Origin: Clostridiales bacterium
GTDB lineage: Bacteria; Bacillota; Clostridia; Peptostreptococcales; Anaerovoracaceae
DNA: 64,000 nt
Assembly: GCA_015058215.1 (NCBI GenBank)
Contig: SVCU01000008.1
Span: forward strand, 1-64,000
Direction: 5' to 3'
The notes below the pieces were generated by a model, which searched no databases, was not told the origin of the DNA, and saw only the letters and a program-made list of their open reading frames with translations. A program made the translations under genes and the position numbers. Shown one piece after another: positions 231 to 4,856 of this stretch; positions within the stretch are counted from its first letter, which is position 1, and each line of letters begins with the position of its first letter.

Positions 231-944
231 CTATTTGACCTGAAGATCTTTGTGAGCCTGGGCGGCAGCGCGGGCCATTTCCTGCAGGCGCAGGCCGGGA
301 TCGGGAGCCTTCACCACACCGGTGGTGGTACCGGTGCCGTCGGCACCGTGGATGATCACGTTGTAGACATCTTCGCCGGTGGTGATGCCGGAGGCGATCA
401 TGATCTTAGCATCCGGTGCTTCCTTCCGCAGGACCTCCACGCAGCGTTCGATGTAGCTGTTATCGGCAGCCTGACAGGTGCCGATCAGGTCCGTGGGTTC
501 GCAGAGAAGGATGTCGGGCTGGAAGGCGGCGATGGCCAGGGCTTCCGTGACGGAGTCCGCGCAGACGATGGAGTGCATTTTAAGCTCCTTGGCGCGAGCG
601 ATGGCCTTGCCCAGATCCGTGAGGGTCATGGGATGCTCCGCATGGTTCAGGAACACCGCATCGGCCCCGGCGGCCTTCAGTGCCTCCGGAAGCTGCCAGC
701 CGCAGCCTCTGCCGATGGGCAGGGGATCCATGTGCTGGGCGGTGACGATGATGTGCTTGGTGTGCTCCTTGATCAGCCGAAGGTCGGGAGCCTGTACGGC
801 GAAGTACAGGGAAATGCCGGTTTCCGCAGCGGCAGCGTCGGCGGCCAGAGCCAGCTTCAGGGCATCTTCGCCCCACAGGTGGCATTTGGTGCTGAAGACC
901 AGGAAGGGGGTCTTTACGGGGTTCACATACTTGGTTTTGCTCAT
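231..944 (-). CDS. Archaeal-type triosephosphate isomerase family protein
   Basis: This 237-residue protein matches the short archaeal-type triosephosphate isomerases rather than the roughly 250-residue bacterial TpiA. The family interconverts dihydroxyacetone phosphate and glyceraldehyde 3-phosphate on a TIM barrel. Catalytic residues look intact: Lys20 (STKCH), His101 (LNHAEH) and Glu149 (CEPTDLIGT), with a phosphate-binding glycine segment ASGITTG and GTTTG near the C-terminus. A GGAGG site precedes the ATG. It follows the aldolase gene by 9 bp and is surely co-transcribed with it. The pairing suggests a dedicated sugar-phosphate catabolic role, perhaps on a tetrose or ketose phosphate. 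Substrate specificity is inference. Confidence 0.85.
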   Translation of the reverse strand: MSKTKYVNPVKTPFLVFSTKCHLWGEDALKLALAADAAAAETGISLYFAVQAPDLRLIKEHTKHIIVTAQHMDPLPIGRGCGWQLPEALKAAGADAVFLNHAEHPMTLTDLGKAIARAKELKMHSIVCADSVTEALAIAAFQPDILLCEPTDLIGTCQAADNSYIERCVEVLRKEAPDAKIMIASGITTGEDVYNVIIHGADGTGTTTGVVKAPDPGLRLQEMARAAAQAHKDLQVK

Positions 945-1919: not shown

Positions 1920-3239
1920 TTATTTGTTCTTCTTGCTGAACAGGATGGAGATCACAGAAGTGATGGCCAGCATGTAGGGATAGAACAGGAAGGGGATGAT
2001 GTCAAAGGCGGAGATGGCGTGGCCCAATACTGCCACAGCAGAAATGGCCAGCAGCATCTGTGCACCGTAGGGCAGGATGCCCTGGAAAATGCAGCTGAAG
2101 GTATCCAGCAGAGAAGCGGATTTCTGGGGAGAAATGCCGTATTCGGTGCTGATTTCCTTGGCGATGGGGCCGGCCATAACGATGGCAACGGTGTTGTTTG
2201 CGGTGGCGATGTCCATGGCACCTACCAGCAGCCCCACACCCAGCTGACCGCCCTTGTTGCCCTTGGCGCACTTACGGATCAGGTTCAGCAGGGATTCAAA
2301 GCCGCCGAATTCACGGACCAGGCCGCAGAGTGCGGAGACCAGAACGGTGACCAGAATGGTTTCGAACATACCGGATGCACCGCTGCCCATGTTGCCCATC
2401 AGGGTCAGGGGATCCACAGCACCCTGAGCTAGGACGATGACAGCGCCGGAAACGATACCGGCCAGCAGCACCAGGAATACGTTGATCCCGGCAAGACCGC
2501 CTGCCAGAACGATCAGGTAGGGGATCAGCAGTACCATGTTATAGTCTTTTTCCACCACGGAACCGGCATCGGTGGTCAGGGACAGGGCCAGAACCAGAAC
2601 GATGGTCAGCAGGGCGGCGGGCAGAGCGATGCGGAAGTTGGTGCGGAATTTATCCTTCATGGCGCAGCCCTGGGTGTTGCAGGCGGCGATGGTGGTGTCG
2701 GAAATGAAGGACAGGTTGTCACCGAACATGGAACCGCCCATGACGGAGCCGACACAGAAGGCCAGGCTGAAGCCGGACGCTTCGGAAACGGCCACAGCGA
2801 TAGGGACAAGCAGGGTGATGGTGCCGCAGGAAGTACCCATGGCGGTGGAAACGAAGGCGGCGGAGACGAACAGCACCGCGACGGCCAGTTTCGGGGGAGC
2901 GACGTCCAGCAGGAAGTAGGCAACGGCTTCGGCGCTGTCGCGGCCGGTAACACCGACGAAGATGCCGGCGGCCAGGAAGATCAGGATCATGGTGAAGATG
3001 TTTTTATCGCCCACACCTTTTGCCATCACTTCCAGTTTGTTATCAAATTTCAGAGCCGGGTTCTGGAAGCAGGCTACCAGGATGGCCACCAGGAAGGCAA
3101 CAACGATGGGGATGGAATAGAAGCCCATTTCAATTTTGAGACCGTATTCCAGGGTGATGCCCAGACCCAGATACAGGACCAGGAATACACCGATGGGCAG
3201 AAGGGCCCAGGGGTTGGATTTTTTCTTCAGATCGTTCAT
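1920..3239 (-). CDS. NhaC-family Na+/H+ antiporter-like transporter
   Basis: This integral membrane protein of about 439 residues has some 11 hydrophobic segments and resembles the NhaC/ion-transporter superfamily. Family traits are the GTSCGTITLLVP segment, the GDNLSFISDTT segment and the DIATANNT segment. I chose the ATG at 3239 (MNDLKKKSNPW) because a GAGG site stands 8 nt upstream; an in-frame ATG 30 bp earlier has a poorer site. NhaC relatives exchange Na+ for H+, but several carry organic substrates, and the neighbouring aldolase and isomerase genes make a substrate carrier possible. It is divergent from a MATE gene. Confidence 0.85.
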   Translation of the reverse strand: MNDLKKKSNPWALLPIGVFLVLYLGLGITLEYGLKIEMGFYSIPIVVAFLVAILVACFQNPALKFDNKLEVMAKGVGDKNIFTMILIFLAAGIFVGVTGRDSAEAVAYFLLDVAPPKLAVAVLFVSAAFVSTAMGTSCGTITLLVPIAVAVSEASGFSLAFCVGSVMGGSMFGDNLSFISDTTIAACNTQGCAMKDKFRTNFRIALPAALLTIVLVLALSLTTDAGSVVEKDYNMVLLIPYLIVLAGGLAGINVFLVLLAGIVSGAVIVLAQGAVDPLTLMGNMGSGASGMFETILVTVLVSALCGLVREFGGFESLLNLIRKCAKGNKGGQLGVGLLVGAMDIATANNTVAIVMAGPIAKEISTEYGISPQKSASLLDTFSCIFQGILPYGAQMLLAISAVAVLGHAISAFDIIPFLFYPYMLAITSVISILFSKKNK

Positions 3240-3319
3240 GGTTATGTCCTCGTAAAAACAAATTTTCATGCAGCCTTTTCGGAAAGACCGAGGCTTGAAA
3301 TAAACTGCAATTGCTTATG

Positions 3320-3347
3320 ATTATAGCAGAAAATCCGCCGTTGGCAA
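3320..3347 (-). promoter_or_regulatory. Sigma-A-type promoter for the nhaC-aldolase-isomerase operon
   Basis: On the minus strand TTGCCA is followed after 16 nt by TATAAT, which also carries the extended TG motif (TGCTATAAT). It reads toward the antiporter gene start at 3239. Confidence 0.75.
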
Positions 3348-3431: not shown

Positions 3432-3440
3432 TGCTATAAT
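3432..3440 (+). promoter_or_regulatory. Extended -10 promoter for the MATE gene
   Basis: TGCTATAAT is a consensus extended -10 element. I see no convincing -35 box at the right distance, as is common for extended -10 promoters. Transcription would begin near 3447, just before an AAGGGGGG ribosome binding site at 3457-3464. Confidence 0.7.
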
Positions 3441-3515
3441 AAAATTGTGTTTTGCTAAGGGGGGATCTTTACGAAAAAAACAGTTACCCGCGTCTGGAAA
3501 AACGGTGCCTCCGAT

Positions 3516-4856
3516 ATGACGGAGGGGACCATCTGGCAGCAGTTGCTGCAGTTTTCCGTTCCCACGGCCATCGGCCTTTTATTTCAGCAATTATACAATA
3601 CGGTAGACTCCATGATCGTCGGCCGATTCGTCGGCAAAGCGGCACTGGCAGCGGTGGGGGGCACTACGCCCATCATCAATATGCTGGTGGGCCTTTGTGC
3701 GGGCGTAGCCACCGGCGCAGGGGTCGTCATTTCCCAAAGTTATGGGGCCAAGGATAACGAACGGCTCCACAAAGCGGTACATACCACCATTCTTCTGACC
3801 CTGATCATGAGCATCGTGGCCACCATCGGCGGCATTTTCCTGGTCAGCCCCATGCTCACCTTTATGAAGACTCCTTCCGATGTATTTGCGGAAGCTCAGG
3901 AATATCTGACCATTTATTTTGCAGGTATCGTGGGCCTACTGATTTATAACATGGGCTCCGGCATCCTGCGGGCGGTGGGCGACTCCAAGCGGCCTCTGTA
4001 TTTCCTGTGCTTCTCCGCTTCCCTGAACGTGGTGCTGGACCTTCTCTTTGTTCTGGTGTTTAAATGGGGCATCGCCGGTGCAGGCTACGCCACTGTCCTG
4101 GCCCAGTTCATCTCCGCTATGCTGATCCTCCGGACTCTGACCAAAACCAAGGAGCCCTACGGCATTCAGTGGAAGGATCTGGCTCTGGATCGGGTGATGA
4201 TGCGGCGCATTTTCGCCATCGGTATGCCCGCCGGTATCCAGCAGGCCATCACCTCCTTCTCCAATGTGTTCGTCCAGTCTTACATCAATGCCTTCGGCGG
4301 CGACTGCATGGCCGGGTTCTCCAGCTACAACAAGCTGGACGGTTTCCTGCTGGTGCCCGTGCAGGCCATCGCCATGGCGGCCACCACCTTCATCGGCCAG
4401 AACTACGGTGCCGGCAAGTACGACCGCGCCCGGAAAGGCGTGCGGCAGTCTCTGTTTATGTCTCTGGGCATCACCGGCGTGCTGGCGGTGCTGCAGCTGA
4501 CCTTCGCGGATACGCTGCTGCTGCTGTTCAACGATCCTTCGGAAACGGAAGTGCTCTACTACGGCAAGGAATTCATCACCTGGATTTCGCCCTTCTACCT
4601 GATCATCTGCTTCAACCAGATCTACGCAGGGGCCATGCGCGGTATCGGCGACGGCAAGACACCCATGATCATCATGCTCAGCTGCTTCGTGGTCTTCCGT
4701 CAGTGCTATATGTTCGTGGCGGACATGCTGGGGGCAAATTTCATCGTCATCGGTCTGGCCTATCCTGCCGGCTGGCTGGTCTGCAGCGTGTTCATGTCCA
4801 TCTTCTACCGGCGTTCGGTGCTCTTTAAGGGCCTGAAACCGGAAACCTTCAAGTAA
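3516..4856 (+). CDS. MATE-family multidrug/Na+ exporter
   Basis: This 446-residue protein of the MATE family has about 12 membrane helices and begins with the typical LLFQQLYNTVDSMIVG segment, repeated in weaker form in the second half (GIQQAITSFSNVFVQ). MATE exporters expel drugs or metabolites in exchange for Na+ or H+. The first ATG at 3516 has no ribosome binding site. A strong AAGGGGGG site lies 6 nt before an in-frame ACG at 3471, which would add 15 residues (TKKTVTRVWKNGASD), a length normal for the family. The true start may therefore be ACG at 3471. It is divergent from the NhaC gene. Confidence 0.9.
   Translation: MTEGTIWQQLLQFSVPTAIGLLFQQLYNTVDSMIVGRFVGKAALAAVGGTTPIINMLVGLCAGVATGAGVVISQSYGAKDNERLHKAVHTTILLTLIMSIVATIGGIFLVSPMLTFMKTPSDVFAEAQEYLTIYFAGIVGLLIYNMGSGILRAVGDSKRPLYFLCFSASLNVVLDLLFVLVFKWGIAGAGYATVLAQFISAMLILRTLTKTKEPYGIQWKDLALDRVMMRRIFAIGMPAGIQQAITSFSNVFVQSYINAFGGDCMAGFSSYNKLDGFLLVPVQAIAMAATTFIGQNYGAGKYDRARKGVRQSLFMSLGITGVLAVLQLTFADTLLLLFNDPSETEVLYYGKEFITWISPFYLIICFNQIYAGAMRGIGDGKTPMIIMLSCFVVFRQCYMFVADMLGANFIVIGLAYPAGWLVCSVFMSIFYRRSVLFKGLKPETFK

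Follow-up and report, generated by a model that had tools for sequence, protein, structure and literature searches.

ACG is a start codon hardly ever used by bacteria. Where, then, does translation begin in a MATE gene whose Shine-Dalgarno sequence stands before an ACG, and is that ACG used? We addressed this question for one gene in a window of 64,000 nucleotides (the whole stretch of DNA that was analysed), which belongs to a genome of 1.73 Mb assembled in 34 contigs with a completeness of 95.4%. The relevant features are the following.

1920-3269, minus strand: divergent ORF upstream of the MATE gene, with its own promoter-like site
3432..3440, plus strand: extended -10 element TGCTATAAT, with TATAAT at 3435-3440 and TG at 3432-3433, read directly from the sequence
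3457..3464, plus strand: Shine-Dalgarno sequence AAGGGGGG, forming a duplex of -10.3 kcal/mol with the 16S tail, spacing 6 to the ACG
3471..3473, plus strand: ACG in the putative start-codon slot of the MATE gene, placed by homologue start positions
3474..3515, plus strand: extension of 14 codons, KKTVTRVWKNGASD, recognised by codon scores and alignment
3504..3530, plus strand: hairpin predicted at -12.8 kcal/mol, whose loop holds ATG 3516 and whose stem holds the GGT of CGGTGC
3516..3518, plus strand: first in-frame ATG, matching by homologue comparison the Met that family members carry internally in a (D/N)MTxG motif

The gene and its leader

The ORF at 3471..4856 (plus strand) has 461 codons when counted from the ACG and 446 from ATG 3516. 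Its stop ends at 4856, and the frame from the ACG is unbroken, with neither frameshift nor internal stop. Judged by its profile matches, the product is a MATE family efflux transporter, since it passes the cut-offs of both TIGR00797 (248 bits against 147.4) and Pfam MatE, PF01554 (227.3 bits against 24.9). The SolL MATE model gives 154.2 bits to the translation from 3471 and 150.3 bits to the one without the extension, both far under its cut-off of 780; the gain arises because the N-terminal extension aligns. Other MATE models score about equally with or without it. We searched for decay at conserved columns, using the 79 of 82 homologues that have a complete C-terminus. At 90%-conserved columns the protein deviates at 3 of 119, and 41/79 homologues deviate at least as often (among the matches listed), so that decay is not visible in the protein by this measure. 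At 97%-conserved columns it deviates at 3 of 77, the homologue mean being 0.94 and 9/79 homologues being as bad (among the matches listed), which may be a slight hint of relaxed constraint. The genome holds 17 matches to the MATE protein at E <= 1e-3, 16 besides the protein itself.

The sequence-only reading had placed the best ribosome binding site of the gene six nucleotides before an in-frame ACG. Direct reading bears this out: AAGGGGGG is separated from ACG 3471-3473 by the spacer ATCTTT. From the stop TAA at 3456-3458 to ATG 3516 the frame reads GGG GGG ATC TTT ACG AAA AAA ACA GTT ACC CGC GTC TGG AAA AAC GGT GCC TCC GAT, and there is no in-frame ATG, GTG or TTG in this interval. The extended -10 element that the same reading saw just upstream is also present; no -35 is recognisable before it, and our promoter scan did not report the element because it demands a -35. 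On the minus strand, upstream of the divergent ORF, a near-consensus promoter lies at 3320-3347 (TTGCCA and TATAAT separated by 16, 11/12, with TG before the -10).

The 16S rRNA has no match in the assembly, and duplex energies were therefore computed with the standard 16S tail, which we take to be the usual one. Of the 1634 ACG triplets that the window holds on its two strands, only 17 have a Shine-Dalgarno sequence at least as strong as -10.3 kcal/mol at 4-10 nt before them. The combination at 3471 is thus more than expected by chance. The predicted structure of the leader as a whole is ordinary (z -0.19). Within it the G run of AAGGGGGG is partly paired, with unpaired probabilities of 0.04-0.52 at 3459-3463, and such pairing would count against easy use of the ACG. 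Opening a ribosome-sized footprint would cost 7.4 kcal/mol at ACG 3471 and 17.8 kcal/mol at ATG 3516. The former lies within the range of inferred starts in 78 homologues (mean 9.2 kcal/mol, sd 3.7, among the matches listed), a set made of L010 and 77 of 80 contig loci after leaving out two at contig edges and one without ATG at the conserved position.

The 14 codons between the ACG and ATG 3516 look coding-like, at the low end. By a scoring trained on eight hand-picked ORFs of the window, their codon log-odds are +2.06 in frame, whereas the two remaining frames give -8.27 and -1.93. A value of +2.06 or higher is reached by 2.4% of 974 overlapping windows of intergenic DNA, and 9.9% of coding windows do not exceed it. 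The Asp just before Met 3516 is invariant across a five-sequence alignment.

ATG 3516 was said to have no ribosome binding site. This was overstated, since a weak site exists (CGGTGC, spacing 7, -5.4 kcal/mol); what stands is that the site is only weak and, in the predicted fold, buried in a hairpin. The core of this hairpin (3508-3525, CCTCCG-ATATGA-CGGAGG) carries the ATG within its loop and would hinder initiation there. It is probably a by-product of the codons. The opening cost at the conserved Met of homologues averages 13.9 kcal/mol (sd 4.2) and is at least 17.8 in 15/78 (among the matches listed). The value at ATG 3516 is therefore at the high end of internal positions, and the hairpin is not exceptional. 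Similarly, a site at least as good as -5.4 kcal/mol precedes the internal Met in 14/79 homologues (among the matches listed).

Start positions in homologues

Close relatives would be the most direct guide to the start, and we searched for them widely. The genus search spanned one genome, the window's own, and thus held no other strain. Neither the scan of genome contigs with the MATE protein nor the searches of viral contigs and plasmids found a relative. No relative exceeds 60% identity: the best match is 60% in a contig scan with a profile (alignment A1, among the matches listed) and 58% in the family search (349 genomes). In the order search, over 393 genomes from the larger group, the best non-self matches were in genomes already matched in the family search. 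The comparison thus rests on more distant homologues.

The profile scan with alignment A1 provided at least 80 contig loci of 47-60% identity. We looked back up to 35 codons from the conserved Met in 78 of them (L071 and L124 were dropped because the contig ends there). A canonical ATG, GTG or TTG lies 7-33 codons before the conserved Met in 78/78 (among the matches listed). The best-scoring upstream codon is ATG in 55, TTG in 15 and GTG in 8, and the conserved Met codon itself is ATG in 77/78 (among the matches listed). The whole-genome set comprised 53 loci (L010-L063, leaving out L039, which is the window gene), of which L035 and L050 were dropped for edges. There, the conserved Met is preceded by a canonical codon at a distance of four codons or more in 48/51. 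The exceptions are L020, with an ATG three codons before it, and L043 (50% identity, same family) and L023, in which no canonical start of the stretch that was read has a site and long open frames continue farther up. L043 has no canonical start within 35 codons before its Met, and such an absence is therefore not unique in the wider family. The closest homologue in the family, L010 (58%, among 349 genomes), has a GTG behind AAAGGAGG; this GTG precedes the Met by 15 codons, just as ACG 3471 does. This distance is exactly 15 codons in 7/80 homologues and 13-17 codons in 34/80 (among the matches listed).

A canonical triplet would arise by chance within about 20 open codons in roughly 60% of genes, by our estimate. 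Hence, the count of 78/78 weighs mainly together with the strength of the Shine-Dalgarno sequences. Strength was compared in the contig loci together with L010 and L011, 80 of these 82 being usable. In 71/80 the best upstream start has a stronger site than the conserved Met, and in 56/80 it attains -6 kcal/mol (among the matches listed); the comparison leans somewhat toward upstream, where the top one of several candidates was chosen. A site of -6 kcal/mol or better at the conserved Met is seen in 11/79 homologues (among the matches listed). Homologue starts, site strengths and extension codons agree, and the translation start slot of the MATE gene is for this reason very probably 3471. The earlier view that the 15 added residues are natural for the family is likewise upheld by the extensions, upstream starts and opening costs of the homologues.

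The ACG itself is another matter. No contig homologue lacks a canonical start (0/78), and ACG is therefore not conserved among the matches listed, which are at most 60% identical. Upstream of the conserved Met, homologues have 31 in-frame ACGs, only two of which reach -8 kcal/mol (among the matches listed). In-frame ACGs with -8 kcal/mol or better were rejected as starts in L143, where the codon is inside a longer repetitive N-terminus, and in L013, where an ATG lies two codons earlier.

Two homologues deserve mention on their own account. In the distant L019 (36% identity, genome G004 C33), AAAGGGG is followed after 8 nt by an ACG located 36 bases upstream of where the conserved Met aligns. 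Ahead of its internal ATGs no canonical codon makes a good start, and the site falls short of -8 kcal/mol. Its genus relatives (54-60% identity) differ near the start, and two of them, L145 and L146, have an ATG thereabouts. L019 is possibly a second case of start loss or of ACG use. In L150, a MATE homologue of genome G071, the likely start region reads AAGGGAGTGACACTGACG, and GTG, CTG or ACG might serve as start.

Weighing the explanations of the ACG

We consider the chances about even that the ACG sits in the true start slot and is used weakly. A transcript would start at around 3446-3449, judging from the -10 element, and AAGGGGGG would bring the ACG into the ribosomal P site. There, the ordinary initiator tRNA (CAU) would pair with positions 1 and 3 of the codon and mismatch at position 2. 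Given this mismatch at the middle base, initiation would be weak, and the low-level product would be an exporter of 461 residues with Met first. Three points here are inferred: some use of the ACG, a low level of expression and the recent replacement of a canonical codon at this position. Since relatives have a canonical start where this gene has ACG, we are probably dealing with an allele that is poorly expressed or was damaged lately (or with an error in the base call), and not with a new mechanism. One might go further and propose a natural, functional ACG start, kept by the strong Shine-Dalgarno sequence and the short leader as a fixed low-expression setting of an efflux pump, which we regard as unlikely.

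The same observations may be read in other ways. Somewhat unlikely is a start-loss allele, in which the canonical start became an ACG that is not usefully used, the exporter being either silent or made as 446 residues from ATG 3516. The truncated form would retain the MTEG motif and everything after it, two homologues (L020 and L016) have just 3-5 residues ahead of the Met position, ATG 3516 does have its weak site, and the three deviations in the 97%-conserved columns, a count that few homologues among the matches listed equal or exceed, go in the same direction. The 16 further matches in the genome imply that loss of this MATE gene could be tolerated. Yet, ATG 3516 would lie in the loop of the hairpin, with its high cost of footprint opening, and a site of -5.4 kcal/mol does not surpass what chance provides, given its frequency at the internal Met of homologues (among the matches listed). 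Moreover, the -10 element, the Shine-Dalgarno sequence and the whole ORF are intact, and any start loss would therefore be recent. Quite unlikely, in our view, is a wrong base at 3472, from sequencing or assembly, in an organism that really has a canonical start there. ACG is one base away from a canonical start, the assembly comprises 34 contigs with a completeness of 95.4%, and the case stands alone among the genome sites examined and the contig homologues (among the matches listed). Against an error speak the 461 codons without frameshift or stop. Consensus errors are also rare in general (around 1e-5 per base), and it is thus unlikely that one should hit a start codon in a 1.7 Mb genome. 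Use of the ACG, a mutated start with lowered expression and a base error were likewise the three alternatives of the sequence-only reading, and they are still the right ones.

Much less credit is due to a plain start at ATG 3516, with 3457-3515 as an untranslated leader and its Shine-Dalgarno sequence a product of chance, which we find very improbable. ATG 3516 does come first among the canonical codons of the frame, with a weak site before it, and the codon score of the extension is low for a coding stretch. But the Met appears internal in homologues, the extension codons are coding-like in this frame only, and a strong Shine-Dalgarno sequence would be left without a start codon. An altered initiator tRNA, or a tolerance of ACG across the genome, is scarcely conceivable. 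The pattern AAGGRGG-N4-8-ACG occurs at 25 sites, against 108 for the pattern read backwards, and 24 of the 25 were examined for an ORF of at least 100 codons, an upstream stop within 10 codons and no canonical start within two codons. Only 3471 emerged as an ACG-only start candidate. At L179 and L185 ORF and stop fit, but a TTG or ATG lies one or two codons on, and both were rejected; the 25th site, L194 (window 904-918), lies antisense within the minus-strand ORF 231-944. The 45 tRNA matches in the genome include a single initiator-type tRNA; its anticodon is CAT, and it shows C1/A72 and a GGG:CCC stem, features which we take to be the hallmarks of an initiator. No initiator with a CGT anticodon was found among these 45, the sole CGT tRNA being a Thr tRNA with the acceptor end and stem of an elongator. 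Since only 3471 qualifies among the AAGGRGG sites examined and the initiator tRNA is ordinary, the ACG appears to be a one-off, and a genome-wide cause is unlikely.

To our knowledge, annotation pipelines do not offer ACG as a start, and a functional ACG start would thus be invisible to them. A gene caller restricted to canonical codons would begin this MATE gene 15 residues short. Comparing start slots between homologues, as done here, uncovers start-loss alleles that are masked when gene callers shift to the next ATG. If the weak use of the ACG that we favour is real, the gene would be an example of ACG starting a protein naturally in a bacterium, despite a middle base that mismatches the initiator anticodon, and would show that a strong Shine-Dalgarno sequence can carry such a codon.

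Known starts outside the canonical codons

A study in E. coli reportedly measured all 64 codons. Four non-cognate upstream starts have been reported in E. coli, with ACG possibly among them (PMC13245402), and an in vitro study used ACG as one of its model start codons (PMC8266586). In the available part of a reconstruction of 61,358 ancestral AUG starts, the switches listed are to GUG, UUG, CUG and AUU only, which weighs against ACG being readily used; the study may not have registered ACG (PMC5622118). The available portions of the literature searched (including PMC11445065, PMC11497404, PMC10715070, PMC2794547 and PMC9845219) contained no natural bacterial ACG start. Its own protein family is the MATE family, both cut-offs of which the gene passes; it differs from 78/78 contig homologues, which carry a canonical start (among the matches listed).

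The closest parallels come from other poor start codons. In S. aureus, AUU and AUA starts with extended Shine-Dalgarno sequences initiate in poor medium at about 10% of the AUG level, one of them rising to as much as 30% in rich medium (PMC13009471). As in cvfC1, ccpN and infC of that species, a strong Shine-Dalgarno sequence precedes a poor codon, and low initiation is what we propose for the MATE gene (PMC13009471). Those starts were ribosome-profiled and reporter-tested and mismatch at position 3, whereas the MATE ACG mismatches at position 2 and comes from the sequence of a single genome; the starts of cvfC1 and ccpN are moreover conserved between species, unlike this ACG (PMC13009471). 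The GTC start reported for Streptomyces sigR offers a similar association between a codon outside ATG, GTG and TTG and a strong upstream ribosome-binding site (PMC5472188). It is backed by N-terminal residues, stop-codon mutants and conservation across Streptomyces, whereas the MATE ACG is a candidate start predicted from DNA (PMC5472188). Finally, in Listeria rsbW, start-codon mutations of ATG to ATA or ATT lower expression and arise under selection (PMC13068326). These cases were selected and reporter-tested, and the non-canonical codons named in the available part of that report are ATA, ATC, ATT and CTG, with ACG not among them (PMC13068326). Nevertheless, the MATE gene resembles rsbW in that a single-base change of the start codon may lower translation and yet keep it (PMC13068326).
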